Assembly: GCF_029813115.1 (NCBI RefSeq)
Contig: NZ_JAPZDS010000009.1
Coordinates: forward strand, 1 to 64,000
Source of the DNA: Aureimonas sp. SK2
GTDB taxonomy: Bacteria > Pseudomonadota > Alphaproteobacteria > Rhizobiales > Rhizobiaceae
Direction: 5' to 3'
Length of the DNA stretch: 64,000 bases
The translations under genes and the position numbers were made by a program. The notes beneath the pieces are model-generated. The model was not told where the DNA came from, made no database searches, and worked only from the letters and a program-made list of their open reading frames with translations. Shown in pieces: positions 11,105 through 61,974 of this stretch. Positions within the stretch are counted from its first letter, which is position 1. Each line of letters begins with the position of its first letter.

Positions 11105-11107
11105 ATC

Positions 11108-44183: not shown

Positions 44184-44222
44184 GCATGAGTCTCCCGGTC
44201 GCGTCGCCCGAGACTTGGCGCA

Positions 44223-44272: not shown

Positions 44273-45265
44273 TCAGCGGCGATGGCGTCGGGCGAGGTCC
44301 ACGAGGATGGCGACAAGCACGACGAGACCGACGATCACCCGCTGCCAGAAGCCGGAGACGTTGAGAAGCACGGTGCCGTTGGCGAGCATGGCGAGGAGCA
44401 GAGCGCCGAGCGCGGTGCCGACGATGGTGCCCTGGCCGCCGCGAAGGCTGGTGCCGCCGATGATGGCCGCCGTGATCGCCTGGAGCATCCAGCCTTCGCC
44501 GACCGACGGCTGGCCGGCGTCCATGCGGCTGGCATAGAGCATGCCGGCCATGGCCGCGAACATGCCGGCAAGCCCGTAGACCATAAACTCGACCCGGCGG
44601 ATGCGGATGCCGACGAGGACGGCCGCGTCGCGGTTGCCGCCGATGGCGAAGATGTTGCGGCCGAACTTGGTGTTGCGCAGCACCCAGATCAGGATGGCCG
44701 CCGAGACGAGGAAGAACCAGACCGGAACGGGAAGGCCGAGGAATTCGCCCTGGCCGAAGACGCGGAAACCCGCGCCCAGCGGTCGGATCGGATAGCCCTC
44801 GGTGATGACCAGCGTCATGCCGGCGAAGATCTCGCCGGAGGCCAGCGTCACGATGAACGGATTGAGCTTCAGGTAGGCGATGAAGAAGCCGTTGACGAGG
44901 CCGAGGCACAGGCCGAACAGGCAGGCGAGGGGGATCACCAGCCAGGGATGGACGCCGAGCGAGGTGAGAAGCAGCGAGCCGACGATGGCCGACAGGCCGG
45001 CCGCGGCGCCCACCGACAGGTCGATGCCCCCGAGGAGAAGCACCAGCGTCTGGCCCAGCGCCACGAGGCCGACGAAGGCGGCCGCGCGGGCGACCACCGT
45101 CAGGTTGTAGGCCGAGAGGAAGTTCGGCGCGGCGATCGACAGGATGATGGCGAAGAGGCCGAGCGCGATCAGGATGCCACTGGCCTCCCAGCCCTTGAAG
45201 CGGGACCAGATGGAGGGCGAAGCGGCGCGGGCCCGCGCGGGAGACCCAAGAGCGGCGTTGGTCAT
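44273..45265 (-). CDS. Sugar ABC transporter permease, RbsC type
   Basis: Membrane channel of a CUT2-class carbohydrate importer. The 330 residues have about ten hydrophobic helices and the family motif ITAAIIGGTSLRGGQGTIVGTALGALLL near the C-terminus. The GGIDLSVGAAAGLSAIVG block lies near 85. It lies 46 bases downstream of the ATPase gene and ends before the terminator at 44251. CUT2 systems import ribose, xylose, erythritol and related small sugars or polyols. Confidence 0.95.
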   Translation of the reverse strand: MTNAALGSPARARAASPSIWSRFKGWEASGILIALGLFAIILSIAAPNFLSAYNLTVVARAAAFVGLVALGQTLVLLLGGIDLSVGAAAGLSAIVGSLLLTSLGVHPWLVIPLACLFGLCLGLVNGFFIAYLKLNPFIVTLASGEIFAGMTLVITEGYPIRPLGAGFRVFGQGEFLGLPVPVWFFLVSAAILIWVLRNTKFGRNIFAIGGNRDAAVLVGIRIRRVEFMVYGLAGMFAAMAGMLYASRMDAGQPSVGEGWMLQAITAAIIGGTSLRGGQGTIVGTALGALLLAMLANGTVLLNVSGFWQRVIVGLVVLVAILVDLARRHRR

Positions 45266-45311
45266 GGCTCGGGGTGCCTTTCGGTCGGGAAGGGTGGGGC
45301 GCTTCGGCGCG

Positions 45312-46802
45312 TCAGCTCATGGCGAGGCGCAGGAGAGCTTCCTGCGTCATATCCTCGGTACGCGGGGTGCCTTTGACGCGGCCCTCGTGCATCACGAGGA
45401 TGCGGTCGGAGACATTCAGCACCTCCTCCAGCTCGGACGAGATGTAGACGATGGAGAGACCTGCCGACGTCAGGCTGTCGAGCACGCCCTGGATCTCGGA
45501 CTTGGCGGCGACGTCGATGCCGCGGGTCGGCTCGTCGAGGATCAGGATCTTCGCGTTCTTGGCGAGCCAGCGGCCCAGGATGACCTTCTGCTGGTTGCCG
45601 CCCGACAGCGAGGTGATCGGGTCGGAGGCCGAGCCGATCTTGATGCGCAGACGATCGACATAGTTGTCCACCGTGCGTGCCATGCCGCGGAAGTCCATCC
45701 AGGCCGGGCCGCGGAAGCGGTCGAGCGTGGCGATGGTCAGGTTCTCGGCGATCGAGAGGAGCGGGAAGATGCCCTCCTGCTTGCGCTCCTCGGGCAGATA
45801 GACGAGGCCGCGGGCGATCGCGTCCGTCGGGTCGGCGACGGGCCGCGCGTCTCCGAAGATCTCGACCGTGCCCGACTTCGCCCTGGTCAGGCCGAAGATG
45901 CACTTGGCGACCTCCGTGCGTCCGGCGCCGACAAGACCGGAGACGCCGAGCACCTCGCCCTCGTGCAAGGTGAACGAGACGTCCTCGAACTCGCCGGGAC
46001 GCGTCAGGCCGCTGACCTTCAAGACCACCGGTCGGTCGTCGAGGCGCCGGGGCGTGTGGGTGGAGAGCGCGACCTCGCGGCCCGCCATCATGGCGACCAT
46101 CTCGTGCTTGGAGGTCCGCTTCGGAACGAGTTCGCCGACATAGGCGCCGTCGCGCAGGACCGAAATGCGGTCCGACAGGTCGAGGATCTCGTCCAGGCGA
46201 TGGGAAATGTAGAAGGCCGAGCCGCCCCCGTCGCGGAAGCGGCGGATGAAGGCGTAGAGCTTTTCGGTCTCGCGCGTCGTCAGCGCCGCCGTCGGCTCGT
46301 CGAAGATCAGGATCCGGGCCTTGGTGGCGACGGCCCGGGCGATCTGGACGAGCTGCTGCTGCGCCTTCGACAGCTCGCCCGCCCGCGCGTCTCCCGCGAT
46401 CGTGTCGTCCACGGCGTGAAGGTGGGTGAGGGCTTCCTCGCGCGTCGCCTTCCAGTCGATGGCGGGGCCGCGCGTAATCTCGGCGCCGAGCATGATGTTC
46501 TCGGCAACGGTGAGCGCGGGGACGAGGTTGATCTCCTGCGGGGCGATGGCGATCCCTGCGTCCTGCGCCTCGCCCGGCGAATGGAAGTGTACCTCCGCGC
46601 CGCCGACGAGGAGCTGGCCGGCGGTCGGGCGAAGGCGGCCGCAGATGATGTTCATCAGGGTCGACTTGCCGGCGCCGTTTTCGCCGATGATCGCATGGAC
46701 CTCGCCGGGGCGGATCGAGACGGATACGCCCTTGAGAGCCTGCACGACGCCGAAGCTCTTCGATACGTTTCTCGCCTCGAAGGCGGTGGCCATCGCGTCC
46801 AT
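45312..46802 (-). CDS. Sugar ABC transporter ATP-binding protein, RbsA type
   Basis: Duplicated ATPase of a CUT2 importer, 496 residues. The first half has Walker A GENGAGKST near 38 and Walker B ILIFDEPTAAL. The second half has the degenerate Walker A VGAGRTEV, normal in this family, the signature LSGGNQQKV and ILILDEPTRGIDV. Start is ATG 46802 or the ATG three codons later. It is co-transcribed with the binding protein and the permease, in the order binding protein, ATPase, permease. Confidence 0.96.
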   Translation of the reverse strand: MDAMATAFEARNVSKSFGVVQALKGVSVSIRPGEVHAIIGENGAGKSTLMNIICGRLRPTAGQLLVGGAEVHFHSPGEAQDAGIAIAPQEINLVPALTVAENIMLGAEITRGPAIDWKATREEALTHLHAVDDTIAGDARAGELSKAQQQLVQIARAVATKARILIFDEPTAALTTRETEKLYAFIRRFRDGGGSAFYISHRLDEILDLSDRISVLRDGAYVGELVPKRTSKHEMVAMMAGREVALSTHTPRRLDDRPVVLKVSGLTRPGEFEDVSFTLHEGEVLGVSGLVGAGRTEVAKCIFGLTRAKSGTVEIFGDARPVADPTDAIARGLVYLPEERKQEGIFPLLSIAENLTIATLDRFRGPAWMDFRGMARTVDNYVDRLRIKIGSASDPITSLSGGNQQKVILGRWLAKNAKILILDEPTRGIDVAAKSEIQGVLDSLTSAGLSIVYISSELEEVLNVSDRILVMHEGRVKGTPRTEDMTQEALLRLAMS

Positions 46803-46863
46803 CTCAACCTCCTGCTTCCTCCAGATGGAAGGGGCCGATGGTCCGGCCCCACCCTTCCCGATC

Positions 46864-47811
46864 TCAGAGATTGTCCTTGGTGATGAGGCGCGAGCCCGTA
46901 TTGTGATCCATCGGGATCGTATGGTTCTGGTTCATTGCGACCAGATACTTCACGGCCGAGTAGCCGATGTCCCACTGGCGCTGGGCCTTGAGCGCGGTGA
47001 TGACGCCTTCCTTCACGAAGTCCACGGCCTCGGGGAGGTCGTCCATGCCCACGATCGCCACATCTCCCGCCTTTCCGGCGTTCTGAACGGCGCGGGCGAT
47101 GCCGATCGGGTTCGAGGCGTTGGAGCCGAAGAAGCCCTTGATGTCCGGATGAGCCTGGAGGGCGTTCTCGGTCAGCGAGACGGCCTCCTCGAGGACGTCG
47201 TTGTCGGGCTGCTCGAACACGATCTTGACGTTCGGGAAGTCCTCCAGCGCCTTCTTGAAGCCCTTGATGCGCTCGACGTGGTCGGTGGCGGTCAGCGATC
47301 CGGACAGGATGCCCACCTCGCCCTCGCCGCCGATATGCTCGGCCAGGTACTTGCCGAGGTCGTAGCCGTCGCCATAGCTGTCCTTCTGGCCGACGAAGGC
47401 GAAGTCCGGCGAGCAGAAGGAGTTGAAGGTGATCGTGTTGACGCCGGCTTCCTTGGCTTCGGTCAGGAGCTGGACGTTGGTCGCCTGATCGAGGCAGGCG
47501 ACGGCGAGGCCGTCGGGGGCGCGGCCGATATTGGCCTCGATGCGCTGGTTCTGGTCGGCGACGTCGGCCTGCGGCGGCTGGTCCCAGATCATGTTGATCT
47601 TGATGCCCTGCTTGGCGAGCTCGTCCACCGCGTACTGGCCGCCCTGGCGCACGACGTCGTACCAGGGATGGATCACCTTCGGGATGAAGACGAAGGTCAG
47701 TTCCTTGTCGATCGGCTTGATGAGGTCTTCCTGCCCCTCAGCCAGGGCGGGCGCGGCGGCGCCGACCAGCATGGAGCCGAGAACGAGGGCGGACCAGAAT
47801 CCGTTGCGCAT
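46864..47811 (-). CDS. Sugar ABC transporter substrate-binding protein, RbsB type
   Basis: Periplasmic binding protein of the CUT2 importer. A signal peptide (LVLGSMLVGAAAPALA) precedes a type I periplasmic-binding fold: LTFVFIPKVIHPWYDVVRQGG, IRSIMW-type strand NMIWDQPPQ, GRAPDGLAVACLDQ, then DIKGFFGSNASNPIG and VAIVGMDDLPEA. ATG 47811 (MRNGFW) starts the signal peptide; earlier in-frame starts run into the promoter. Its ligand is the likely inducer of the divergent operon but cannot be identified from sequence. Confidence 0.95.
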   Translation of the reverse strand: MRNGFWSALVLGSMLVGAAAPALAEGQEDLIKPIDKELTFVFIPKVIHPWYDVVRQGGQYAVDELAKQGIKINMIWDQPPQADVADQNQRIEANIGRAPDGLAVACLDQATNVQLLTEAKEAGVNTITFNSFCSPDFAFVGQKDSYGDGYDLGKYLAEHIGGEGEVGILSGSLTATDHVERIKGFKKALEDFPNVKIVFEQPDNDVLEEAVSLTENALQAHPDIKGFFGSNASNPIGIARAVQNAGKAGDVAIVGMDDLPEAVDFVKEGVITALKAQRQWDIGYSAVKYLVAMNQNHTIPMDHNTGSRLITKDNL

Positions 47812-48159: not shown

Positions 48160-49194
48160 ATGAAAGCTGCCCTCCTGCGCGCTCCCAACGACGTCCTGTT
48201 CGGCGACGTCGCCGACCCGGCCCCGGAGCGCGGCGACCTCGTCCTCAAGGTGCGCGCCGCCACCATCTGCGGCACCGACATCCGCATCGTCAGCGGGCGC
48301 AAGACCATGGGCGTGCGCTACCCGTCGGTTCTCGGCCACGAATTTTCCGGCGAGATCGTTGATGCCGGCGGCTCCTCCCGCTTCAAGGCGGGCGACGCCG
48401 TCTGCGTCGATCCCGCCATCGCCTGCGGCCACTGCGCCTATTGCCGACGCGGCCTGGAGAACGTCTGCGAGAATCTCACCGCCATCGGCTACGAGGTGGA
48501 CGGGGCCTTCGCCGAATACATCCGCATTCCCGGCCGCGCGCTGGAGACGGGGAACGTCTTCGCGATGCCGGACGGCGTCTCCTTCGAGGAGGCGGCGCTC
48601 GCCGAGCCGCTGGCCTGCGTCATCAACGGGCAGGAGAAGGTCGGTGTCGAGCGCGGCGACGTCGTCGCCATCCTCGGCTCGGGGCCGATCGGGCTCCTCC
48701 ACGTCAAGGTCGCGCGCCTGTCCGGCGCCCGCCGCATCATCGTGTCGGAGCCGAATGCGGCACGCCGCGATGCGGCGCTGAACGCCGGGGCCGACGTCGT
48801 GGTCGATCCGGCAAACGAAGACCTGAAAGCCATCGTAAGGGCCGAATCGGGCGGCATCGGCGCCGATGCCGTGATCGTCGCCATCGGTGTGCCTTCGCTC
48901 GCCAACGACGCGCTGGGCCTCGCGCGCCCGCGCGGCCGCGTGTCGCTCTTCGCCGGCTTCGACAAGGGCGAGATGGCGCCGCTCGACGTCAACGCCATCC
49001 ACTACAACGAGCTGATCGTCACCGGCTCCTTCGGCCTGACGCGCCTCCAGTTCGAGAAGTCGCTGAACCTGATCGCGTCCGGACAGCTCGACACCAAGCC
49101 GTTCCTGACGCATCGTTTCGCTCTTCCGGCGATCGGCGAGGCGCTGGAAACCGCCGCGCGCGGCGATGCCATCAAGGTCGCCATCGTATCCTGA
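48160..49194 (+). CDS. Zinc-dependent polyol/sugar-alcohol dehydrogenase (MDR family)
   Basis: Medium-chain NAD(P)-linked dehydrogenase, 344 residues, resembling sorbitol and threonine dehydrogenases. Catalytic-zinc ligands Cys37 (ICGTD) and His60-Glu61 (LGHEFSG) are present, as are all four structural-zinc cysteines (89, 92, 95, 103). The nucleotide motif is LGSGPIGLLHVKVAR near 171. First gene of the rightward operon, it overlaps nothing and is followed after 2 bases by the GlpD-like gene. The substrate is probably the polyol imported by the ABC system or its oxidised product. Confidence 0.94.
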   Translation: MKAALLRAPNDVLFGDVADPAPERGDLVLKVRAATICGTDIRIVSGRKTMGVRYPSVLGHEFSGEIVDAGGSSRFKAGDAVCVDPAIACGHCAYCRRGLENVCENLTAIGYEVDGAFAEYIRIPGRALETGNVFAMPDGVSFEEAALAEPLACVINGQEKVGVERGDVVAILGSGPIGLLHVKVARLSGARRIIVSEPNAARRDAALNAGADVVVDPANEDLKAIVRAESGGIGADAVIVAIGVPSLANDALGLARPRGRVSLFAGFDKGEMAPLDVNAIHYNELIVTGSFGLTRLQFEKSLNLIASGQLDTKPFLTHRFALPAIGEALETAARGDAIKVAIVS

Positions 49195-49196
49195 TC

Positions 49197-50792
49197 ATGA
49201 GCTTGAATGCCCCCAAAGCCACCCGCCACTTCCCGGTCGTCGTCATCGGCGCCGGCATCAACGGCATCGGCACCTTCCGCGATCTCTGCCTGCAGGGCGT
49301 GGACTGCCTGCTGATCGACCGCGGCGACTTCTGCTCGGGCGCGAGCGAGGCGTCCTCGCGCCTGATGCATGGCGGGCTGAAATATCTGGAGACCGGCGAG
49401 TTCCGGCTGGTGCGCCAGTCGGCGGAGGAGCGCAACATCCTCCTTCGCAACGCGCCGCACTTCGTGACGCCCCTGGAAACCGCACTGCCCGTCCGCTCCT
49501 GGTTCGGCGGCATCGTACCGTCGATCAAGCGGTTCCTGGGGCTCAAGGCCAGGCTCAACGACCGCGGCGCGATCATCACCAAGCTCGGCCTCACGATGTA
49601 CGACGCCTTCGGCCGGCGCTTCCGCACCATGCCGGTGCATCGTTTCATCGGCGGCGCCCGTGCACGCCGGGAACTCGAGGGCCTCGATCCCGCGATCACC
49701 GCCGTCGGCCTCTACTACGAGGCCCGCCTCGACCATGCCGAGCGGCTGGGGCTGGAACTCGTCCTCGACGCGCTGTCCGACAATCCCCGCAGCGAGGCCC
49801 GCAGCTACACCACGGTGCGCTCGGCTGCCGGGGGCGCGGTCGAGATCGAGGACGTTCTGACCGGCGCGCGCGAATGGGTGCGCGCCGACCTCGTCGTCAA
49901 CGCCGGCGGCGCCTGGATCGACGGCGTCAATGCCGCGCTCGGGCTCAACACGCGCCACATGGGCGGCACCAAGGGCAGCCACGTCGTCGTGGAGCATCCT
50001 GAGCTCCTCGAAGCGCTGGGCGGGCGCATGGTCTATTTCGGTTCTGCCGACGGCCGCGTGAACCTCCTCTACCCGTTCAAGGGCCGGGTACTGATCGGCT
50101 CGACCGATATTCCGATCAGTCATCCCGACGAGGCCCGCGTGAGCGAGGCGGAGATCGCCTACATGATCGGCGTCGTCTCGGAGGTCTTCCCGCGTATCGC
50201 GATCCGCCGCGAGGACGTGGTCTACGCCTTCTGCGGTGTGCGCCCGCTGCCCAATGCCGATGTCGACGATCCCGGCGCGATCAGCCGCGACCACTCGATC
50301 GCCGAGGAGCGCCTGCCTGGAACCGACGTGCCCGTCCTCTCGCTGATCGGCGGCAAGTGGACGACCTATCGCGGCTTCTCGGAAGAGGTGACGGACAAGG
50401 TGCTCGCCCGGCTCGGGCGCGCCCGCCGCGCCTCGACGGCCGAGCTCGCCATCGGGGGCGGCCGCGGGTTCCCGGTGGACGAGGGCGGACGCCGCGCGCT
50501 GGTGCACGAACTTGCGACACTCGCCGGCTCGCCCGAGCCCGTGGGCGAACGCCTCCTGCGGCGCTACGGCACCAGGGCCGGCGCCATCGCCGCCGCGATC
50601 GGCGGCTCGGACGGCCGAACGCTCGGAGCCGCGCCCGACCACCATGTCGCCGAGATCGCCTGGATCGCGGCCAACGAGAGGGTCCGCACCGCGGACGACA
50701 TCCTGCGCCGGCGCACGGACCTCGCTCTGTCGGGGGCGGTGACGCCGGCGCTTCGCGACGAGGTGGAGGCGATCCGCCTCGCCGCCGCCTGA
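49197..50792 (+). CDS. FAD-dependent glycerol-3-phosphate dehydrogenase-like enzyme
   Basis: Flavoprotein of the GlpD/EryB family that oxidises a polyol phosphate and passes electrons to the quinone pool. The 531 residues start with the FAD motif VIGAGINGIGTFRDL (18-32) and contain MHGGLKYLETGEFRLVRQ, GGTKGSHVVVEHPE and the C-terminal block FCGVRPL and LIGGKWTTYRGFSEEV. In erythritol catabolism a member of this family, EryB, oxidises erythritol phosphate. Here it sits with a kinase and a SorC regulator, which favours a polyol phosphate over glycerol 3-phosphate. Confidence 0.92.
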   Translation: MSLNAPKATRHFPVVVIGAGINGIGTFRDLCLQGVDCLLIDRGDFCSGASEASSRLMHGGLKYLETGEFRLVRQSAEERNILLRNAPHFVTPLETALPVRSWFGGIVPSIKRFLGLKARLNDRGAIITKLGLTMYDAFGRRFRTMPVHRFIGGARARRELEGLDPAITAVGLYYEARLDHAERLGLELVLDALSDNPRSEARSYTTVRSAAGGAVEIEDVLTGAREWVRADLVVNAGGAWIDGVNAALGLNTRHMGGTKGSHVVVEHPELLEALGGRMVYFGSADGRVNLLYPFKGRVLIGSTDIPISHPDEARVSEAEIAYMIGVVSEVFPRIAIRREDVVYAFCGVRPLPNADVDDPGAISRDHSIAEERLPGTDVPVLSLIGGKWTTYRGFSEEVTDKVLARLGRARRASTAELAIGGGRGFPVDEGGRRALVHELATLAGSPEPVGERLLRRYGTRAGAIAAAIGGSDGRTLGAAPDHHVAEIAWIAANERVRTADDILRRRTDLALSGAVTPALRDEVEAIRLAAA

Positions 50793-50845
50793 ACCATCAT
50801 CCGCCGGATCGGGAAGGGATCCGTCATTCCTGGGAGGAGAGCGCG

Positions 50846-51826
50846 ATGCGCTACGATTATTCGTCGATCGGCTTCTACACGTTCGACTGCCTGGGCCGCC
50901 CCGTCGGCACGATCCCGGCGGGCGGGGGCACGCAGTTCATCGAGGAGATCGACCTCGCCGTCTCGGGGGCGGCGGGCGCGGCCGTCGTCGCGGCCGCCAA
51001 GCACGGGCTGAAGTGCCTCGCGGTCGGCGGCGTCGGCGACGACCTGATGGCCGGCTGGGTGCTCGATCGGATGGCCCATTTCGGCGTCGACATCTCCACC
51101 ATGCAGCGTCTCGAGGGCGTCGGTACCTCGACCTCCATCGTTCTGACGCGTGCCGACGGCTCGCGCCCGGCGCTCCACATGAAGGGCGCGACCGGCGCCT
51201 TCGTGATCACCGAGGACATGTGGGACCAGGTCCTCGACGCGACCGTCGTCCATATCGGCGGCGTCGGCCTGATGGACCGGATGGACGGGCCCCCAAGCGC
51301 CCGTCTCTTCGCGGAAGCCAAGCGGCGCGGTGCAATCACGACGGTGGACGTCTTCGCGGCCGCCGAGAAGGATCTCGCCAACGTCGTCGGTCTCCTGCCG
51401 CATACGGACTACTTCCTGCCCTCGATCGAGGAAGCGCGTGTCCTGTCGGGGCTGGAGGACATCGAGGACGTGTCGCGCTTCTTCCTCGACAAGGGCGTGG
51501 CGTGCTGCATCCTGACGCTCGGCGAGAACGGCGCCTATTATCGCCATGCCAACGGCGACCGCTTCCTGATGCCGGCCTTCGACATCGAGATGGTGTGTTC
51601 CTGCGGCTGCGGCGACGCGTTCAACGCCGGCATCGCCACGGGCCTCGTGCGCGGTATGGACCCCGAATCCATGGTCCGCTTCGCCCAGGCGACCTCGGCG
51701 CAGAACGCGCTCGGCCTCGGCAGCCAGGCGGGCGTCACCTCCTTCGAGAAGACGCTGGAGTTCACCAGGCGCCCGACCCGGCCGGCGGAGATCGAGATCC
51801 AAGGCCTGGACCGCACGGCGGCCTGA
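50846..51826 (+). CDS. PfkB-family carbohydrate kinase
   Basis: Ribokinase-type kinase of 326 residues, with GGGTQFIEEIDLAVSGAAGAAV near 27-48 and GVGDDLMAGWVLDRM in the N-terminal half. The C-terminal anion-hole motif reads CSCGCGDAFNAG (251-262), with catalytic Asp257. Its preceding residues Cys-Ser-Cys replace the usual Asp-Thr-x, and Cys replaces the Ala of GAGD. GGGAGGAGA precedes ATG 50846. The likely substrate is a sugar or polyol of this pathway. It follows the GlpD-like gene after 53 bases. Confidence 0.92.
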   Translation: MRYDYSSIGFYTFDCLGRPVGTIPAGGGTQFIEEIDLAVSGAAGAAVVAAAKHGLKCLAVGGVGDDLMAGWVLDRMAHFGVDISTMQRLEGVGTSTSIVLTRADGSRPALHMKGATGAFVITEDMWDQVLDATVVHIGGVGLMDRMDGPPSARLFAEAKRRGAITTVDVFAAAEKDLANVVGLLPHTDYFLPSIEEARVLSGLEDIEDVSRFFLDKGVACCILTLGENGAYYRHANGDRFLMPAFDIEMVCSCGCGDAFNAGIATGLVRGMDPESMVRFAQATSAQNALGLGSQAGVTSFEKTLEFTRRPTRPAEIEIQGLDRTAA

Positions 51827-51979
51827 GCGCGGACGATGGCGCAGGGCGCTCTCCTCCCGCCGATCCCAAGGGGCTGACCGGTGGGCTGGCGCGCACGCGG
51901 CGGCTCGCCTGGGCTGTCCGGACAGGCGGGGGAGGGGGTAGACCCGAAGGAGACGATTTCCTCGGGCGAAAGTCAGGCC

Positions 51980-52942
51980 GTGTCCACCACCGACAGCGAC
52001 GACATCAAGGCGCGCGCCGCCTGGCTCTACTACATGGAGGGCCTGACCCAGGATCAGGTCGCCAAGATCCTGGGCCTCACCCGCACGCGCGTCCTGCGCA
52101 TGCTGGCGGCCGCGCGGGAGGACGGCACGGTGCAGATCCGCGTGACCGCGCCGATCGCCCGCTGCGCGCGGCTGGAACGGGAGGTCCGCGCCCGTTTCGA
52201 CATGGAGCGCGTGGTGGTGGTGCCCGATCCGCAGGACGAGGCGCGACTGCCGGCCATGATCGGCGCGGCGCTCGGCCAGCTCCTGCCCGACCTCGTCGCC
52301 GACGGCATGACGATCGGGCTCGGCTGGGGACGCACGCTCTCCACTTCTCTGCCCTTCGTGGAGCCGATGGACTACGCGCGCTCCACCACGATCTCGATGC
52401 TGGGCGGGCTGACGCATGTCAGCCTGTCCAACCCGTCCGAGTTCGCCTGGCGTTTCGCCGACCGGATCGGCGGCGACTGCTACATGCTGGCCTGCCCGGT
52501 CTTCGCGCCGGACAAGGCGACACGCGACGCGCTCCTCGCCCATCGCGGGATCGCCGAGGTGTTCCGGCGCACCGACCGGATGGACCTCGCGATTCTCTCG
52601 GTCGGCGACTTCACGCGCGATTCGATCTTCGTCCACTACGGGCTTCTGGAACGCGCCGATCTCGACAGCCTGGAGCGGGCAGGGGCGGTCGGCGACATTC
52701 TCTGCCGCTTCATCGACGCGGAAGGGCGCGTCCTCGACCATTCGGTCAACGACCGGGTCCTGGCCGTCGATCCCCGCCGGCTCGTGGACGCGCGCCGCAC
52801 GGTGCTCGCCAGCGGCGGCTGGTCGAAGTTCCCCGCGATCCGAGCGGCCATGAAGCTGCTGACGCCCGAAATCCTCGTGACCGACGAGCGAACGGCCGAA
52901 CGCCTGCTCGACGGCAGAAAATCCGTCGGCGAACGATTTTGA
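51980..52942 (+). CDS. SorC/EryD-family transcriptional regulator
   Basis: DNA-binding repressor or activator of polyol catabolism. The N-terminal HTH is ARAAWLYYMEGLTQDQVAKILGLTRTRVLRMLAAARE. It is followed by the sugar-binding SorC domain: GLGWGRTLSTSLPFVEP, then ISMLGGLTHVS, LSVGDFTRDSIF and VLDHSVNDRVLAVDPRRL. GTG 51980 is my choice; the frame is open from 51881 and an AAGGAG at 51946 lies too far upstream, so the start is uncertain. It is in the operon it probably controls. Confidence 0.93.
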   Translation: MSTTDSDDIKARAAWLYYMEGLTQDQVAKILGLTRTRVLRMLAAAREDGTVQIRVTAPIARCARLEREVRARFDMERVVVVPDPQDEARLPAMIGAALGQLLPDLVADGMTIGLGWGRTLSTSLPFVEPMDYARSTTISMLGGLTHVSLSNPSEFAWRFADRIGGDCYMLACPVFAPDKATRDALLAHRGIAEVFRRTDRMDLAILSVGDFTRDSIFVHYGLLERADLDSLERAGAVGDILCRFIDAEGRVLDHSVNDRVLAVDPRRLVDARRTVLASGGWSKFPAIRAAMKLLTPEILVTDERTAERLLDGRKSVGERF

Positions 52943-52976
52943 ACTCTTGTCTTTATAAAGAGACAAATGTACTTTG
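52935..52976 (+). promoter_or_regulatory. Candidate internal promoter and operator before the DXR-like gene
   Basis: TTGAACT (52940-52946) and CAAATGT (52964-52970) flank a near-palindrome TTGTCTTTATAAAGAGACAA (52947-52966). A -35 TTGTCT (52947-52952) and -10 TACTTT (52970-52975) are 17 bases apart. TTTGAACT...CAAATGT also occurs at 47943-47967. The resulting leader is short, so the promoter is tentative. Confidence 0.45.
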
Positions 52977-52997
52977 CTTCCCATGGGAGGAACAGCG

Positions 52998-54317
52998 ATG
53001 ATGATTCTTCAGGTTGGCCTCGCGGCCGAGCTCCAGGCCTATGCCGACAAGAACGGCCCGGTGACCGTGGGCCTCGCGGGCTCCGGCCAGATGGGCACCG
53101 ACATGGTCGTGCAGCTCACCCTGATGCCGGGCGTGCGCCTCGGCGCCCTGTCCGAGCTGAACGTCGCGGGGGCGGAAGCCGCGCTGCGCATGGCAGGCAC
53201 CGAGTTCGTCCATGCCGCGGGCGTCAACGACATCGACCGTGCCATCGAGGGCGGCAAGGTCGCGCTGACCGAGGACTTTAAGGCGCTCTGCGCCTCCGGC
53301 CATATCGATGTCATCATCGACGCGACCGGCAACCCGAACGTCGGCACGTTGATCGCGCTGGAGGCGTTCCGGAACGGCAAGCATGTCGTGATGCTCAACG
53401 TCGAGGCCGACATCACGATCGGCCGGTTCCTGCGCGAGGAAGCCGCCAAGGCCGGCGTCGTCTACACGGGCGCGGCGGGCGACGAGCCGGCGGCGACGAT
53501 CGAGATCATCGGTTTCGCCCAGTCGCTGGGCTTCGACATCGTCTGCGCCGGCAAGGGCAAGAACAACCCCCTGAAGTTCGACGCGACACCGGACGCCTAC
53601 GAGGACGAGGCGCGCCGGCGCAATATGAACGCCCGCATGCTGGTCGAGTTCGTGGACGGCTCCAAGACCATGATCGAGATGGTCGCGGTCGCCAACGCGA
53701 CGGGGCTCGTGCCGGATGTTCCGGGGATGCATGGGCCTGCCGCCACGCGTGACGAGCTGGCCTCGGTGCTCTGCACCAGGGAGGACGGCGGCGTCCTCTC
53801 GGGCACGGGCAAGGTCGACTACTCCATCGGCAAGGGCGTCGCGCCCGGCGTCTTCTGCATCGTGAAGCCCAGGCACGATCGCGTGCTCGAGCGCATGAGC
53901 GATCTCAAGATGGGTCCCGGCCCGAACTACACGATCTTCCGCCCCTATCACCTGACCTCGCTGGAAGTGCCGCTTTCCGCGGTGCGCGCGGTGATGAAGG
54001 GCGCGCCAGACCTCATCCCCGCCGATCGCCCGGTCGCCGAGTGCGTCACGCTCGCCAAGCGCGACCTCAACCCCGGCGATACGCTCGGCAAGATCGGCGA
54101 GTACGACTATCGCGGCTTCGCAATGACCTGGGAAGGCGCCCGCGACGAGGGCGCCCTGCCGCTGGGGCTGGCGGAGCGGGCGCGTGTCATCAAGCCGATC
54201 AAGGCCGGCGAGAAGCTGACCTATGCCAATTGCGAGCCGGACGACAGCCTGGTGATCACCCAGATCCGCCGACGTCTCGACCAGGCCGACGGGCGCTTCG
54301 CCACGGCCGCCGAATAA
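52998..54317 (+). CDS. SAF-domain NAD(P) oxidoreductase, DXR-like (DRL/COG4091) family
   Basis: The 439 residues open with a Rossmann fold ([13 protein letters not shown], 24-36, glycine motif 28-33). A homoserine-dehydrogenase-like catalytic domain with GKGKNNPL near 184-191 follows. The end is a SAF domain (about 340-430, with [18 protein letters not shown]). Brucella DRL, from this family, converts 1-deoxyxylulose 5-phosphate to 2-C-methylerythritol 4-phosphate in place of DXR. Other members are annotated as homoserine dehydrogenase-like and are uncharacterised. GGGAGG precedes ATG 52998. Position before acetoin-dehydrogenase genes suggests a catabolic, reverse-direction role. Confidence 0.85.
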
Positions 54318-54338
54318 CCGGATCAGGAGACAGGTCGC

Positions 54339-55391
54339 ATGTCCGCCATCCCCAAGGCTGCCGATGTCGCCGAGGCCGCGCCGCAGGCAAGCGGCGGGCG
54401 CGAGGGCGACAACCGCCCCTTCGCCTTCCGCCATTTCGAGCCGGCCGTCCTCAAGGACGCGCTGCGCCAGATGCACCTGATCCGCCGCTTCGAGGAAGGC
54501 GCGGAGGAAAGCTACATGCGCGGCCTGATCCACGGCACGATGCACCTGTCGATCGGCCAGGAGGCCTCGGCGGTCGGGATCTGCCTGCCCCTGACGGATA
54601 CCGACCAGATCACCTCGACCCATCGCGGCCATGGGCATTGCATCGCCAAGGGCGCGGAGGTCGGGCGGATGTTCGCCGAGTTCTTCGGCAAGGAGACCGG
54701 ATATTGCCGCGGCCGCGGCGGCTCCATGCACATCGCGGACGTGACCAAAGGCAATCTCGGCGCCAATGGCATCGTCGGCGGCGGCCTGCCCATCGCGGTG
54801 GGCGCGGCGCTCTCCATGAAGATGCAGAAGCGTCCCGACGTCGTCGTCTCCTTCTTCGGCGACGGCGCCAACAACGAGGGCGCCTTCCACGAGGCGCTCA
54901 ACATGGCCTCGATCTGGAAGCTGCCGGTCGTTTTCGTCTGCGAGAACAACAAGTACGGCATGTCGGTCTCGACCGAACGCTCCACGGCGGTCAAGAACAT
55001 CGCCGACCGCGCCGTGGCCTATTCGATGCCGGGCGTGACGGTGGACGGCAATTCGCTGTCGGACGTCTCGGAAGCCTCCGTCACCGCCATCGAGCGGGCG
55101 CGGCGCGGCGAGGGGCCGACCCTCATCGAGTGCAAGACCTATCGCCACCGCGGCCACTCCAAGAGCGACCGCAATCGCTATCGCACGAAGGAAGAGATCG
55201 ACGACTGGATCTCCAAGGATCCGATCGGCCGCTTCGAGGCCGAACTGATCCAGTACGGCATCGTGACCGACGGCGAGGTCGAAGGCATCCGCGCCGATGT
55301 CGAGCGCGAGATCGCGGAAGGGATCGAGTTCGCCAAGAACTCCCCGTCGCCCGACCCATCCGACGCGACCCGTTTCGTCTACACCGCCTGA
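54339..55391 (+). CDS. Thiamine-diphosphate-dependent dehydrogenase E1 alpha (acetoin-dehydrogenase type)
   Basis: Alpha subunit of a 2-oxoacid or acetoin dehydrogenase E1, 350 residues. The ThDP motif runs from [20 protein letters not shown] (GDG at about 174) to ENN near 203. [28 protein letters not shown] near the start is the typical E1alpha segment. [14 protein letters not shown] carries the phosphorylation-loop-type residues. The next genes give E1beta and E2. Pairing with a hydrolase-type E2 points to an acetoin-like alpha-hydroxyketone substrate rather than pyruvate. Confidence 0.93.
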
Positions 55392-55417
55392 CCGGCGACC
55401 CCCAAGGAATCCCCCGG

Positions 55418-56431
55418 ATGAGCGAACTTGCGAACGCGGCTGGCGGCCGCGAGCTTTCCTATGCCCAGGCGATCCAGGAAGCGATCGCCATCGCTATGGA
55501 GGAGGACCCTCGTGTCTTCATCATGGGCGAGGATATCGGCGTCTACGGCGGCGCCTTCCAGGTGACGGGCGACCTCGTCCATCGCTTCGGCGCCGATCGC
55601 GTGATCGACACGCCGATCGCCGAACTCGGCGGCGCGGGCGTTGCGGTGGGGGCGGCGCTCACAGGCATGAAGCCGATCTACGAGTTCCAGTTCTCCGATT
55701 TCGCGACGCTGGCGATGGAGCAGATCGTCAACCAGGCGGCCAAGCTCCGCTTCATGCTGGGCGGCAACGTCTCGGTGCCGCTGGTCATGCGCTTTCCGGC
55801 GGGCTCGGGCACGGGCGCGGCCGCCCAGCACTCCCAGAGCCTCGAGGCCTGGCTCGGCCACGTCCCCGGCCTGAAGGTGCTCCAGCCCTCCACCCCGCAC
55901 GATGCCAAGGGCATGCTGCTCGCCGCGATCGACGATCCCGATCCGGTGATGATCTTCGAGCACAAGATTCTCTACAAGTCGAAGGGCATCGTCCCCGAGG
56001 GCCGTTACACCGTGCCGATCGGCAAGGCGGCGGTGGTGCGCGAGGGCAGGGACCTGACGATCGTCGCGTCCGCCATCATGGTCCACAAGGCGCTGGCGGC
56101 GGCCGAGGAACTGGCCAAGGACGGCATCGACGTCGAGGTCGTGGACCTTCGCACCGTGCGCCCGATGGACCGCGAGACCATCATCGCGAGCGTGATGAAG
56201 ACCGGCCGCCTCGTCTGCGTCTACGAGGGCGTCAAGACGCTCGGCGTCGGCGCCGAGATCTCGGCGATGATCGCCGAGTCGGAAGCCTTCGACTATCTCG
56301 ACGCGCCGATCCTGCGGCTCGGCGGCGCGGAGGCGCCGATCCCCTACAACCCCGAGCTCGAGAAGGCGGTCGTGCCGCAGGTCGAGGGCATCGTCGCGGC
56401 CGTGCGCAAGCTGGCCCGCCGGGAGCGCTGA
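55418..56431 (+). CDS. Thiamine-diphosphate-dependent dehydrogenase E1 beta
   Basis: Beta subunit, 337 residues, of the same E1. Conserved segments are [32 protein letters not shown] (with Glu/Asp contacts to ThDP), [20 protein letters not shown], and [45 protein letters not shown] and [18 protein letters not shown] close the C-terminal domain. Start is ATG 55418. A 26-base gap from E1alpha and 3 bases to E2 show one operon. Confidence 0.93.
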
Positions 56432-56434
56432 GCC

Positions 56435-57832
56435 ATGCCGACCGAAGTGATCCTGCCCAAGGTCGATATGGACATGGCGACCGGCCAGATCTCGCGCTGG
56501 TTCTACAAGGAAGGCGACACCATCAAGAAGGGCGAGCCGCTCTTCGAGATCGAGACCGACAAGGCGGCCATGGAAGTGGATGCGCCTGCCAGCGGAACGC
56601 TGCGCAACGTCACCGGCACGGAAGGTGTCGACATCGCCGTCGGTGCGCCGGTCGCCTGGATCTTCGCCGAAGGCGAGGCCTTCGACGGGCGGCCCACCGG
56701 GGCAGCGTCCGAGGTCAAGGGCGGGCCCGATCCGGATGTCGAGACGGATTCCAAACCCGCCTCGACGGACATTGCCACGGCAGCGGCCAACGGCGGGAAG
56801 TCATGCTGCGCCAAACCCGCCGAGGGCGAGCGCCGGGGCGTTCGTGCGACGCCGCTCGCCCGCCGCATCGCCCGCGAACGCGGCATCGACCTCGCTTCGG
56901 TGTCCGGCACGGGACCGCTTGGCCGCATCGGCCGCGAGGACGTGGAACAGGCCGCCTCGTCGCGCGGCGGGGCGCCGGCCGCGCCCGCACCGGCCGGCGA
57001 GCGGCCCCAGCCCGTCGCCGCCCGCGCGCCCGAACCTGTCCCGGCGCCACGCCAGACGGCGTCCATGGCGGATGCCGCGACGCCGCTTGCGGTCGTGCGC
57101 CTGCGCGAAGGGCAGGGCGTGCCCGTCGTGATGATCCACGGTTTCGGCTCGGAATCGGCGAGCTGGCGTCCGCTGCTCGGCGAGATGACGGAAGGCGGAC
57201 CGGTTCTCGGCATCGACCTCGCCGGCCACGGCGGTTCGCTGGCCCAGGAAGCGGACGGGTTCGACGCGCTGGTCTCCGGCGTCGAGGAGACGCTGATCGC
57301 GCTCGGCGTCGGGACCTGCCACCTCGTCGGCCACTCCCTCGGCGGTGCCGTCGCGGCAGCCGTGGCCTCGGGCACGGCGACCGACGTCCGCTCGCTCATG
57401 CTCCTGTCGCCGGCCGGCTTCGGCCCGGACATCGACACCGGCTTCACCGAAGGCTTCGCCCGCGCGACCGACGAGGCGCCGGTCCGCGCCTGGCTGCGCC
57501 ATCTGGTGGCCGACCCCGCGGTCCTCTCCGACGGCCTCGTGCGGGCGACCGCGCGCGGGCGCGCCGACGGCCGCCAGGCGGAGGCGCAGACCAAGCTGGG
57601 CTCGACGCTCTTCTCCAACGGCGCGCAATACGTGTCGGTCCGCGACCTCCTCGCCGGCCTGTCCATGCCGGTGAAGATCGTCGCGGGCACCGAAGATCGT
57701 GTGGTGCCGGCACGTCACTTTGCCGGCCTGCCCGGGCGGATCGCCTTGCATCTCTTCCCGCGCACGGGACATATGCCGCAGATCGAGCAGAAGGGCGACG
57801 TCGCCCGCCTGCTGCGCGAGCTGACACGCTGA
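56435..57832 (+). CDS. E2 component with lipoyl, binding and alpha/beta-hydrolase domains (AcoC type)
   Basis: Lipoyl-bearing component of the acetoin-type dehydrogenase complex, 465 residues. The N-terminal lipoyl domain carries the lipoylated lysine Lys43 (EIETDKAAMEV). A peripheral-subunit-binding domain follows (RATPLARRIARERGIDL, about 136-172) after a linker. The usual acyltransferase catalytic domain is replaced by an alpha/beta hydrolase from about 218: VPVVMIHGFG, nucleophile GHSLGG (Ser301), GTEDRVV and RTGHMPQIE. AcoC of acetoin dehydrogenase has this hydrolase arrangement. No E3 gene is in the window. Confidence 0.93.
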   Translation: MPTEVILPKVDMDMATGQISRWFYKEGDTIKKGEPLFEIETDKAAMEVDAPASGTLRNVTGTEGVDIAVGAPVAWIFAEGEAFDGRPTGAASEVKGGPDPDVETDSKPASTDIATAAANGGKSCCAKPAEGERRGVRATPLARRIARERGIDLASVSGTGPLGRIGREDVEQAASSRGGAPAAPAPAGERPQPVAARAPEPVPAPRQTASMADAATPLAVVRLREGQGVPVVMIHGFGSESASWRPLLGEMTEGGPVLGIDLAGHGGSLAQEADGFDALVSGVEETLIALGVGTCHLVGHSLGGAVAAAVASGTATDVRSLMLLSPAGFGPDIDTGFTEGFARATDEAPVRAWLRHLVADPAVLSDGLVRATARGRADGRQAEAQTKLGSTLFSNGAQYVSVRDLLAGLSMPVKIVAGTEDRVVPARHFAGLPGRIALHLFPRTGHMPQIEQKGDVARLLRELTR

Positions 57833-57949
57833 CGGCTTGGGCGGGGACGGTTCCGTCCCGACCCGAAGGACCGTCCTTCCGGCCGGTTCGGGCGACCGGG
57901 CCGGCCGGAAGCGCGTTCGGCTCTGGAATGGACCTGCGGGGAGGCCGGC

Positions 57950-58651
57950 ATGGCGGAATTCGACGGCATCATCTTCGACTGCGACGGCGTTCTGGTCGAC
58001 AGCGAGGTCCTCGCCCGCCGGGCCATGCAGTCGGTCTACCGCCAGGCCGGCATCGACGTCTCGGCCGACATGGTCAATGCCGTTGTCGGCATGAAGTTCG
58101 CCGACATCCTAGCCTCCATCGAGACCCGGACCGGGCGCTCGCTGGCGAAGGAATACCACCCGCAGTTCTGGACGGAGACCAAGGCACTCTTCACGGCCGA
58201 ACTCGCCCCGACCCCCGGCATCGTCGCCTTCCTGGAAGCCTCGACGCTGCCGCGCTGCGTTGCGTCCTCCTCCGACCACGAGCGCATCCGCCACAGCCTC
58301 AAGGTGACCGGGCTCGACCGCTTCTTTTCCGACGATGCGATCTTCTCCTCGCACGACGTGAAGCGCGGCAAGCCGGAGCCCGACCTCGTGCTTCACGCGG
58401 CGAGCCGCATGGGCTTCGACCCTGCGCGCTCGCTGGTGATCGAGGATTCGCGCTTCGGCATCATGGGCGCCAAGGCCGCCGGCATGGTCGCCTACGGCTT
58501 TCTCGGCGGCGCCCATCTCCTCGCCAACACTGGCGATGCGCTTCGCGATGCCGGCGCCGATTTCGTGGCCCGTACCTACGACGAGATCGCCGCGGAAATG
58601 GTGCGCGGAGGCCGCCGGATGGAGATTCAACGAGATCCGTCTCGGGGTTAA
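57950..58651 (+). CDS. HAD-family phosphatase (beta-phosphoglucomutase-like)
   Basis: Haloacid-dehalogenase fold hydrolase, 233 residues, with FDCDGVLVDSE (nucleophile Asp10 and Asp12), SSSDHERIRHSLKVTGLDRFF (motif II Ser), KRGKPEPDL (motif III Lys) and VIEDSRFGIMGAKAAGM (motif IV). It lies 117 bases downstream of the E2 gene and may be the last gene of the operon. It could dephosphorylate a sugar phosphate of the pathway, either productively or as a repair step. The substrate is open. Confidence 0.93.
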   Translation: MAEFDGIIFDCDGVLVDSEVLARRAMQSVYRQAGIDVSADMVNAVVGMKFADILASIETRTGRSLAKEYHPQFWTETKALFTAELAPTPGIVAFLEASTLPRCVASSSDHERIRHSLKVTGLDRFFSDDAIFSSHDVKRGKPEPDLVLHAASRMGFDPARSLVIEDSRFGIMGAKAAGMVAYGFLGGAHLLANTGDALRDAGADFVARTYDEIAAEMVRGGRRMEIQRDPSRG

Positions 58652-59559: not shown

Positions 59560-61494
59560 TCAGATCTCCGTCACGCATTTCTTGGCGCGGGGGATCGAGG
59601 CGGCGCTCATGGAGAGCTCGGTGACGCCGTTCTCGACGAAGAAGGGGATGAGGTCGGGGCGGGCGGCGGCCTCGCCGCACACGCCGATCCAGATGCCGGC
59701 CTCGCGCGCGGCGCCCGCCGCCATGCGGATCGCGGCCAGCACCGCCGGATGCTCCGTGCGGTTGAGCTTGGCGACACGCGGGTTCAGGCGGTCGGCGGCC
59801 ATGACGTACTGGGTGAGGTCGTTGGTGCCGACGGAAAAGAAGTCCACCTCGCGCGCGATCTCGGCGGCGACGAACACCGCCGCGGGGGTCTCGATCATCA
59901 CGCCCAGCTCGAACGCGCCGTGGGCTTGGCCGCCGGCGTCGAGTTCCGCGCGGCATTCGTCGAGCAGCGCGCGCACCGCCCGCACTTCGCCGACATCGGC
60001 GATCATCGGCAGGAGAATCTTGACGTTGCCGACGATGCTGGCGCGCAGGAGCGCGCGAAGCTGCGGCTTGAAGACGTCCGGCCGCTCCAGGCACATGCGC
60101 ACGCCGCGCCAGCCGAGGAACGGGTTGTCCTCGTGCTCGAAGTCGATGCCGGCGACCGGCTTGTCGCCGCCGATGTCGAGCGTCCGGATCACCACCGGGT
60201 GCGGCGCGAAGGCCTGCGCAAGCGTCGTGTAGGTCTCGGCCTGCTCGTCTTCGCCGGGCAGGGTCCGGCGTTCCATGAACAGGAACTCCGTGCGGAACAG
60301 GCCGACGCCCATGGCGCCCGCCTTCTGCGCGGCCTCGATCTCGGCGAGCGAGCCGAGATTGGCGGCGATCTCGATGCGCCGGCCGTCGCGGGTCGTCGGC
60401 TCGACCGTGCGATAGGCTTCCAGTGCGGTGCGCTCGGCGGCTTCGCGGGCGATCGCGCCCCGGAAACGCTCGGCCTCAGCAGCGTCGGGGTCGAGCGCGA
60501 CCGCGCCGGTGGAGCCGTCGAGGGCGATCGTCCGGACCGCCTTCAGGCGCGCCTCGTCGGCCGAAAACCCGAGAACGGCGGGAATGCCGTGGGCGCGGGC
60601 CATGATCGCGACATGGCTCGTCGCCGCGCCCTTGCGGCAGACGATCCCGCCGATGTCGGCGAGCGTCGCCTTGGCGAGGTCGAGCGCGGCGATCTCGTCC
60701 GCCACGATGACCGAACCCCTTGGCATGTCCGCGAGCGTCATGTCGCGCCGGCCGAGAAGGGTGAGCGTGATGGCGCGCGTGACCGAGCGGATGTCCTCGG
60801 CGCGGGCGCGAAGATACGGGTCGGCCAGCGCCTCGAAGCTCGCCGCGATCGTCCGGCCGGCCTCCGACACGGCGCTCGCCGCATCCTGCCCCGCCGCGAT
60901 CCCGCTTTCGACGGAACCGATGAACTCGGCGTCCTCGGCCACTTCCACCAGCGCATCGATGATGGCCGCGTCGTCGCGCTTGAGGCCGGGCCGCGCCTTG
61001 GCGTCGCGGAAGGACTGGACGGTGCCGGCGAGGGCTTGGCGGTAGCGCCGGCGTTCGGCCTCGCGCTCTTCCGGCGGGACCGTGCAGGGCTGGATGTCGA
61101 GCGCGGCGGGAAAGAAGGCGAAGGCCGGCCCGATCGCCGTCCCCTCGCTGGCCGGCACGCCGCGATCGGGCGAGGCGCACGCCGGAGTCACGGCGGGGGC
61201 CGCGGGCTTGCCGGTGGCCGTCAAGTCGATGTCGCCGGCGTCCGGCGTCTGGAGAAAGGTCGCGAGCGCCGAGACGGCGTCGGCGGCGTCCTCGCCCTCG
61301 GCGCGAAGTGTCGCCTCGTCGTTCTCCTTCACGCCGAGCAGCATCAGCTTGACCGCGCTCGTGGCGCTGGCGCCGCGCCCGTTGCAGCGGATCTCGACCT
61401 CGCAGGAAAAGCTCTTGGCCAGCTTCACGAACTGCGTCGCCGGGCGGGCATGGAGACCGTCGTGCACGCGCACGACGACGGAGCGCTCGATCAT
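59560..61494 (-). CDS. HPr-enzyme I fusion phosphotransferase of the PTS
   Basis: General PTS protein that takes phosphate from phosphoenolpyruvate. The 644 residues carry an N-terminal HPr domain with His15 in HDGLHARPATQFVKLA and a Ser46-like residue in ASATSAVKLMLLGV. The enzyme I part starts near residue 110. It has active-site His294 in GAATSHVAIMAR, the PEP-binding GLFRTEFLFM motif and, near the end, the catalytic Cys in WIGVCGEAAARPDLIPFFV. An HPr-EI fusion without a IIA-type extension is unusual. It lies 32 bases downstream of IIA and probably serves this PTS. Confidence 0.93.
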   Translation of the reverse strand: MIERSVVVRVHDGLHARPATQFVKLAKSFSCEVEIRCNGRGASATSAVKLMLLGVKENDEATLRAEGEDAADAVSALATFLQTPDAGDIDLTATGKPAAPAVTPACASPDRGVPASEGTAIGPAFAFFPAALDIQPCTVPPEEREAERRRYRQALAGTVQSFRDAKARPGLKRDDAAIIDALVEVAEDAEFIGSVESGIAAGQDAASAVSEAGRTIAASFEALADPYLRARAEDIRSVTRAITLTLLGRRDMTLADMPRGSVIVADEIAALDLAKATLADIGGIVCRKGAATSHVAIMARAHGIPAVLGFSADEARLKAVRTIALDGSTGAVALDPDAAEAERFRGAIAREAAERTALEAYRTVEPTTRDGRRIEIAANLGSLAEIEAAQKAGAMGVGLFRTEFLFMERRTLPGEDEQAETYTTLAQAFAPHPVVIRTLDIGGDKPVAGIDFEHEDNPFLGWRGVRMCLERPDVFKPQLRALLRASIVGNVKILLPMIADVGEVRAVRALLDECRAELDAGGQAHGAFELGVMIETPAAVFVAAEIAREVDFFSVGTNDLTQYVMAADRLNPRVAKLNRTEHPAVLAAIRMAAGAAREAGIWIGVCGEAAARPDLIPFFVENGVTELSMSAASIPRAKKCVTEI

Positions 61495-61526
61495 GGCTCG
61501 AAATCCGGTGTCGAAGGTCTTTGGGG

Positions 61527-61907
61527 TCAGTCGCCGATGGCGATGGTCGCGCCGGGCTGAAGCGCTCGGGCCAGCATCTCGCCGTCGACCGGGCTCGCGG
61601 TCAGCTCGCCGGGGCGCTCGGGCGCGGCCGCGCCGTTGAAGTTGATGACGACATGGCCGATGTCGCGCACCTTGGCCCAGGCGAGCTCGCCGATGCCGGT
61701 GAGGCGGGCTTCCACGGAGCCGATACGGATCGGCACGCCGGGCGCGGGCGCTCCGGTCGACGGCTCGCCCTCGACGGCGTGCATCACCGACACCTCGGCG
61801 AGCTCCGGCGGCGCGCCGTCCGCGAACAGGATCAGCACGCCGCCTTCCAGAAGGTCGGGAACGTCGGGACCGACGGCGGTGACGCGGGTGCGGAGGTATT
61901 GGGTCAT
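61527..61907 (-). CDS. srlB: PTS glucitol/sorbitol-specific IIA component
   Basis: Phosphoryl carrier between HPr and IIB, 126 residues. The alignable segments to E. coli SrlB are LLEGGVLILFADGAPPELAEVSVMHAV, containing the phosphorylated His43 in the same position, and DIGHVVINFNG. VDGEMLARALQPGATIAI ends the protein. The gene sits between IIB (srlE) and the HPr-EI gene on the minus strand. Confidence 0.9.
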   Translation of the reverse strand: MTQYLRTRVTAVGPDVPDLLEGGVLILFADGAPPELAEVSVMHAVEGEPSTGAPAPGVPIRIGSVEARLTGIGELAWAKVRDIGHVVINFNGAAAPERPGELTASPVDGEMLARALQPGATIAIGD

Positions 61908-61974
61908 GGAAATCCTCGGGCGGACGATGGCCGCTGGAAAGGGGCCGGGCGGGCGGGCCGCCCGGCCGGAGCGA

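Follow-up and report, generated by a model that had tools for sequence, protein, structure and literature searches.

What does an oxidoreductase related to 1-deoxyxylulose 5-phosphate (DXP) reductoisomerase (DXR) do in an operon that lies between two sugar importers and also encodes subunits of a thiamine diphosphate (ThDP)-dependent dehydrogenase complex? The question is raised by Aureimonas sp. SK2, in a stretch of 64,000 nucleotides (hereafter the window; positions 1 to 64,000 of NZ_JAPZDS010000009.1, here contig C89, of which it is a part) from a genome of 4.56 Mb that is 99.96% complete. A preliminary description of this DNA proposed that the DXR-like protein (DRL) runs its reaction backwards, from 2-C-methylerythritol 4-phosphate (MEP) to DXP, which the neighboring E1/E2 subunits then cleave. 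Here, the gene arrangement is confirmed and the interpretation is partly supported, namely in its core, by an E1 clade tied to DRL, by interchangeable entry through either a phosphotransferase system (PTS) or a kinase with an ATP-binding cassette (ABC) importer, and by the presence of a further DXR in this genome and in most others that carry the cluster; the PTS, the E1 clade and the census of DXR genes improve the original account. Judging from gene content and its conservation, the cluster rather probably serves catabolism of 2-C-methyl-D-erythritol or a close 2-methyltetrol.

Substrate, direction, cleavage and regulation of this pathway we infer as follows. The polyol would be imported and phosphorylated to MEP by a glucitol-type PTS, or else by an ABC importer together with a PfkB kinase; DRL, acting in reverse, would oxidise MEP to DXP; and a dedicated ThDP-dependent E1, an AcoC-type E2 and a shared E3 would cleave the CH3-CO-CHOH bond of DXP, yielding acetyl-CoA, NADH and glyceraldehyde 3-phosphate. 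The DXR reaction is reversible with an equilibrium in favour of MEP, and oxidation of the acetyl unit to acetyl-CoA would supply the pull that offsets this unfavourable position. Sugar phosphate would be sensed by sugar-binding regulators, while a HAD enzyme may ease phosphate build-up.

Domain searches recovered all genes named in the preliminary description, in the order and orientation given there. On the forward strand a zinc-dependent MDR polyol dehydrogenase (48160-49194; PF08240 (ADH_N), PF00107 (ADH_zinc_N)) and a GlpD/EryB-like FAD polyol-phosphate dehydrogenase (49197-50792; PF01266 (DAO), PF16901 (DAO_C)) are followed by a PfkB kinase, the proposed methylerythritol 4-kinase (50846-51826; PF00294), and by a regulator with a sugar-binding domain (51881-52942; PF04198, E 1e-54). 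The latter had been called EryD-type; a regulator is indeed present, but EryD is a resemblance only and the family is of the PF04198 (SorC) kind. Next come DRL, a DXR type II (DXR-II) oxidoreductase and the proposed MEP dehydrogenase (52998-54317; PF21135 DRL_cat, E 4.2e-66), ThDP-dependent E1alpha (54339-55391; PF00676, E 1.4e-91), E1beta (about 55418-56431; PF02779/PF02780) and an AcoC-type E2 with lipoyl, E3-binding and alpha/beta-hydrolase domains (56435-57832; PF00364, PF02817, PF12697), while a HAD phosphatase, possibly relieving dead-end sugar phosphates, closes the row (57950-58651; PF13419). A scan for promoters and terminators found 1 and 7 sites, respectively, where shuffled sequence yielded 0.7 and 4.8 on average; it is not used as evidence.

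The first argument for a functional bond between DRL and the dehydrogenase complex is their recurrent proximity. Among 396 genomes of one order, 218 have a PF21135 match; surroundings of 114 listed DXR-II-type matches were examined together with the window (115 loci), this sample being hand-picked from short-span (~492 base) matches among those listed, so that weaker DXR-II matches may be missing. With a linked locus defined by E1alpha and E1beta within 7.5 kb of DRL, 31 of the 115 qualify, and 30 after removal of L208, the E1beta of which lies a long way from the clade described below; L207 is left uncounted, as its fetched stretch has no E1beta match and ends beside an E1alpha of 77% identity. 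Thus the association of DRL with aco-type E1/E2 genes, which the preliminary description suggested looking for in other genomes, does recur, and the DRL-E1 linkage is far beyond chance. A contig scan for relatives of the window DRL, which is 95-97% identical to DRLs of several Aureimonas genomes, gave 208, of which the best 80 were kept; 21 of these have DRL-E1alpha-E1beta-E2, mostly with a PTS alongside, the carriers being Aureimonas, Jiella, Mesorhizobium ephedrae, Microvirga, Lichenifustis, Alsobacter, Acetobacteraceae and metagenome-assembled genomes (MAGs). On plasmids, in a set that includes near-copies, E1beta of at least 60% identity occurs in 34 records, with DRL within 8 kb in 33 of them (Priestia included) and within about 2.5 kb in 32; the exception, Rhizobium SSA_523 (L260), has EIIC-GAT PTS, enzyme I and transposase genes. 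Annotated plasmids combine DRL-E1-E2 with a glucitol-type PTS or with an ABC importer, and clusters of the ABC type have lpdA in line (in two of them lipA as well) and a sugar or PfkB kinase adjoining in two of three, the third stretch ending within the ABC genes. The Aminobacter cluster has neither PTS nor ABC importer in the stretch fetched. In the firmicute Priestia, PTS, E1-E2-E3, DRL and an FGGY kinase share one region.

The second argument is the distinctness of the E1 subunits. In a tree of 55 E1beta sequences, 45 linked ones, including that of the window, are united in a single clade (SH-aLRT 99), separate from two pyruvate dehydrogenase (PDH) E1beta, namely the copy from contig C1 of the same genome and the S. 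meliloti PDH, and from one acetoin-operon E1beta (Caballeronia, the only clear acetoin sequence included); the tree comes from a quick search and has several long branches meeting. E1beta of Priestia and of a C. difficile plasmid are neighbours of the linked clade. The alignment reveals two clade-specific basic residues, K191 and K277, which might bind the phosphate of DXP. Profile models place the subunits less sharply: E1alpha scores 384 bits with the PDH E1alpha model TIGR03182 (cut-off 394) and E1beta 395 bits with PRK11892 (cut-off 454), both below threshold, while E1beta exceeds it for the broader PDH subfamily model PRK09212 (401 against 321 bits), as does E2 for the acetoin dehydrogenase E2 model of NCBIfam, PRK14875 (366 against 307). 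The last two scores would suit a plain MEP-pathway DXR that merely adjoins an acetoin or pyruvate dehydrogenase. We regard this as quite improbable, given that linked E1beta belong to neither the PDH nor the acetoin branch, that the genome has another DXR-II and another E1beta of the PDH clade, and that conserved PTS or ABC-plus-kinase genes and sugar-binding regulators are not the company expected of a housekeeping gene. The window E1beta is 47% identical to its next relative in the genome, the copy on C1; since the latter falls in the PDH clade, a role of the window E1/E2 as the housekeeping PDH was ruled out.

One might also ask whether these subunits could form DXP instead of cleaving it. 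DXP is a thiamine precursor and ThDP the cofactor of E1, and on one Rhizobium plasmid a thiamine biosynthesis operon (thiC to thiD; L256 13445-18672) comes after the DRL-E1-E2 cluster. Mutants of the E. coli PDH E1 (aceE) allow DXP formation (PMC3424233), a chemical precedent that is almost the proposed DXP cleavage in reverse. Both facts speak for a DXS-like E1 in a cluster that boosts isoprenoid, thiamine or pyridoxal supply. Such a function appears very improbable, however, as a polyol importer would be useless to it, and the lipoyl E2, together with the lpdA and lipA genes that some clusters include, would serve acyl-CoA formation and not DXP synthesis.

As for DRL itself, by its sequence it is an enzyme of the DXR-II type: it scores 222 bits with PF21135 (cut-off 27), and its only sequence relatives in the PDB at E 0.001 are the Brucella DRL entries 3UPL and 3UPY (E about 1e-141; 476 bits to 3upl). 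Residues described as important for substrate and dimer contacts of DXR-II (K191, K193, T229, E174, F178, R320 and Y322 in Brucella numbering, from PMC3847144) all have their equivalents in the window DRL, numbered by alignment to the Brucella protein, and these together with H250 are identical in 56 of 56 loci labelled linked. Since substrate-site residues are unchanged in linked DRLs, DXP/MEP chemistry is plausible.

A biosynthetic duty of the window DRL would be expected if it were the only DXR in the genome, and the preliminary description would have given up its proposal in such a case. The genome has IspG, and a class I DXR is absent by either domain search; its full DXR-II genes are two, the window copy and another on contig C45 (C45:27004-27495; 67% identical), with a weak relative in addition. 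The window copy as sole DXR was thus ruled out. In a tree of the DRL family, the C45 copy groups with second copies of Aureimonas in an unlinked clade and the window copy with linked copies of Aureimonas. Contig C45 also has a third, distant DRL-like gene (6595-7176, L237; about 30% identical), in which the positions of K193 and T229 carry different residues. DXR genes were then counted in the genomes of 18 of the 21 linked loci among the best 80 relatives. A class I DXR is matched in eight, so that a normal dxr is kept in part of the cluster genomes but not in all; one match (G012) is weak, partial and devoid of the C-terminal domain, which is poor evidence because the N-terminal model also reports the control genome of Methanocaldococcus jannaschii, where the C-terminal model does not. 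Seven more genomes have at least two strong DXR-II, and three MAGs (G015, G016, G017) have one DXR-II match and no class I DXR found. In the order sample, with class I status hand-read from the domain-match list, another DXR is present in 21 of 30 linked genomes. Catabolic-looking settings, defined as E1/E2, a PTS, or a kinase plus ABC genes, surround 9 of 12 DXR-II loci in genomes with class I DXR versus 10 of 67 single DXR-II in genomes lacking it (Fisher p 6.5e-5, a statistic that ignores kinship).

The third argument comes from the modules by which the polyol might enter. Divergent from the operon lies an ABC importer on the reverse strand (44273-47811), consisting of a permease (44273-45265; PF02653), a ribose-type ATPase (45312-46802; PF00005) and a substrate-binding protein (46864-47811; PF13407), with an aldehyde dehydrogenase after them (42756-44189, reverse strand; PF00171) that has the same place in L006 and L009. 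On the other side, convergent with the operon, the reverse strand carries a glucitol-type PTS (59560-63893), which the preliminary description, ending at 58651, had missed, so that its gene set was correct but incomplete as a cluster: an HPr-enzyme I fusion (59560-61494; PF00381, PF05524, PF00391, PF02896), IIA (61527-61907; PF03829), IIBC (61975-63018; PF03612, PF07663) and IIC (63042-63893; PF03608), continued by GutM and a second PF04198 regulator mostly past the window end (about 63967-65480 of C89; PF06923, PF04198). Entry modules were compared over a separate set of 208 annotated DRL-family loci (203 distinct proteins), which pools mixed samples, includes the distant DLO-like L237 and has two genomes twice (L015 and L212, L017 and L175), so that rates are better taken from the 115 order loci. 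Its 55 linked loci comprise 25 with a PTS, 16 with a PfkB-type kinase, 5 with both and 9 with neither in the flank. The kinase entry first proposed would fit the 16, but the glucitol-type PTS is the commonest module (30 of 55, counting those with a kinase too). As linked loci mostly carry one or the other, phosphorylation by PTS and by kinase looks interchangeable, which a substrate entering as free polyol would lead one to expect. Kinases 60-65% identical to the window PfkB stand after E2 in DRL-E1-E2-PfkB clusters with ABC genes, and the window PfkB is 56% identical to the kinase of a Sinorhizobium-type cluster, so that the two kinase queries are related. Relatives of the HAD gene occur in 20 of 30 linked loci with a PTS, in 1 of 16 with a kinase only and in 2 of 9 with neither.

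Several observations weigh against 2-methyltetrol catabolism as proposed here. Some concern direction. No other DXR was found in 9 of 30 linked genomes of the order although IspG is present, six of the nine belonging to one family code (f20), and the MAGs G016 and G017 likewise have IspG and no other DXR found. The DRL thus apparently is the only DXR of these nine genomes, which again suits a plain MEP-pathway enzyme; the linked DRL presumably serves both directions there, and in G016, G017 and the nine order genomes it probably makes MEP for isoprenoids as well. In 3 of the 21 genomes with another DXR (G198, G228, G410) that other DXR-II itself lies beside an FGGY kinase and ABC genes. The substrate-site residues are kept in nearly all unlinked DRLs too, so their conservation shows family and not direction, and V351 varies in 10 of the 56 linked loci. 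Other observations concern the linkage. This E1 is missing from 6 of 38 best alphaproteobacterial DRL plasmid records (32 carry it), and 9 of the 55 linked loci have neither PTS nor kinase in the flank, of which four have 10 kb of sequence to either side. The Rhizobium SSA_523 plasmid has this E1/E2, and the C. difficile plasmid (L252) a near one, without DRL in the stretch fetched; on the latter (7014-18583) a sugar-binding regulator and E1-E2-E3 near the DRL-linked clade accompany an EIIC-GAT PTS. As only a suggestion, an EIIC-GAT PTS beside E1/E2 without DRL could deliver the ketose phosphate directly. Conversely, 47 loci of the DRL-family set of 208, among them many from closely related Mesorhizobium, pair an FGGY kinase with ABC genes and lack E1/E2; in the one looked at in detail, L040, DRL stands with an FGGY kinase, a PF04198 regulator, a ribose-type ABC importer and two SDRs. 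Locus L226 (2865-12298) has DRL with a FucA-like aldolase, ABC genes, an FGGY kinase and a glycerol-1-phosphate dehydrogenase-like gene. Both kinds of locus indicate that other substrates or fates exist, and that DXR-II often belongs to sugar catabolism even without E1/E2.

The remaining difficulty is that MDR, GlpD and aldehyde dehydrogenase have no place in the simple route. MDR, GlpD, PfkB and the ribose-type ABC importer, counted as cluster parts by the preliminary description, are present in the window and together in L006, L009 and L014 (partially in L007 and L008, which lie on contigs that stop short) but often absent from clusters of distant relatives. On S. meliloti pRM41A, a GlpD-like gene (58.5% identical) and an MDR gene (69%) adjoin each other beside DRL-E1-E2-lpdA-lipA; as both recur there and in L014, they look like an accessory module. 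Our guess is that a stereoisomer, e.g. 2-methylthreitol phosphate, is oxidised at carbon 3 by GlpD and then reduced again by MDR to give MEP. The same genes would equally suit stereoisomers or upstream oxidation in a pathway of the same logic for another branched or deoxy polyol (2-methylthreitol, 1-deoxyxylitol, 1-deoxyxylulose), with the DRL specificity shifted and E1/E2 cleaving another 1-deoxyketose phosphate; three plasmid loci that combine E1/E2 of this kind with an EIIC-GAT PTS, two of them lacking DRL in the stretch fetched, point the same way. This is possible but unlikely, since linked DRLs keep the DXR-II substrate-site residues compared, and PMC3847144 gives two paralogues each of M. 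loti and O. anthropi as functional DXR-II, whether or not any of these is a linked one.

Returning to catabolism of 2-methyltetrols through DXP, the distribution of DXR-II invites a tentative view of its origin, which we hold to be somewhat less probable than the contrary: DXR-II would be catabolic at its root, having arisen in polyol operons with a DXP-cleaving dehydrogenase where it is still widely kept, and biosynthetic use in Brucella, Bartonella and many Rhizobiales would be a later recruitment after loss of class I DXR. Firmicutes would have other outlets (transketolase in Ligilactobacillus), and E1/E2 with a GAT-type PTS but without DRL would serve 1-deoxyketose uptake. The DXR-II tree, in which the DLO-like L237 is the outermost branch, has Listeria (PTS), Priestia (PTS, kinase, E1/E2) and L206 (kinase, ABC) diverging ahead of two large alphaproteobacterial groups, which suits a catabolic start, under a midpoint root only and with long early branches. 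In Listeria, DRL is placed inside a glucitol-PTS operon with no E1/E2 in the flank. The Ligilactobacillus locus (L245 8995-16566) has DRL, PTS, GutM, a sugar-binding-domain protein, an FSA-type aldolase and a transketolase, with no E1/E2 in the stretch. Occurrence of DXR-II in bacteria without the MEP pathway (Finegoldia, Anaerococcus and two Chloroflexus), as listed in PMC3847144, suits a catabolic origin too. The same paper leaves open how DXR-II evolved in strains already having class I DXR, redundancy not being favoured, and its distribution is described as sporadic in PMC13001223; a catabolic origin, if true, would directly answer why a redundant DXR-II arose.

Should the pathway exist, it would include a new enzyme activity, cleavage of DXP to acetyl-CoA, and give a function to the dedicated E1 clade, while presence of DXR-II alone would be no proof of a biosynthetic role. 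Plants can form 2-C-methylerythritol as free polyol and glucosides (PMC11192765), and 2-methylerythritol and 2-methylthreitol are marker compounds of isoprene aerosol (PMC4740749); the pathway would provide a biological sink for the former and possibly for the latter two. Within the openly licensed PMC literature, no paper on methylerythritol catabolism was found by exact phrase or among top matches. Further along C89 (about 67000-71650; L243 about 5000-9650), a GntR regulator and PdxA-like, TIM-barrel isomerase-like and DhaK/DhaL-like genes, named by eye from translations, perhaps belong to another tetrose or sugar-acid pathway.

Four known systems offer themselves for comparison. With erythritol (ery) catabolism the cluster shares a GlpD/EryB-like enzyme, a regulator with a sugar-binding domain and a ribose-type ABC importer; DRL and E1/E2 are not known to be part of that pathway, and the operon kinase is a PfkB, no FGGY kinase being matched in the window by tblastn with one FGGY query (Priestia; not a true EryA). 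The acetoin dehydrogenase complex (AcoABC) resembles the present one in its AcoC-type E2 and in the proposed cleavage of CH3-CO-CHOH to acetyl-CoA and an aldehyde, whereas the window E1beta belongs to a different clade from the acetoin-operon E1beta compared, and the cluster genes identified in the window or annotated in the plasmid clusters include nothing resembling AcoR or AcoX. To the DXR-II/DRL family (Brucella DRL, 3UPL/3UPY; PMC3847144) the window DRL belongs by sequence and by the same substrate-site residues; the known role of that family is forward and biosynthetic, while the window DRL stands beside sugar importers and a putative cleaving complex in a genome having a second DXR-II. 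Finally, glucitol/sorbitol PTS operons (srl/gut) share IIA, IIBC, IIC and GutM of the glucitol family with the window PTS, which differs in having its own HPr-enzyme I fusion and in recurring together with DRL and E1/E2.

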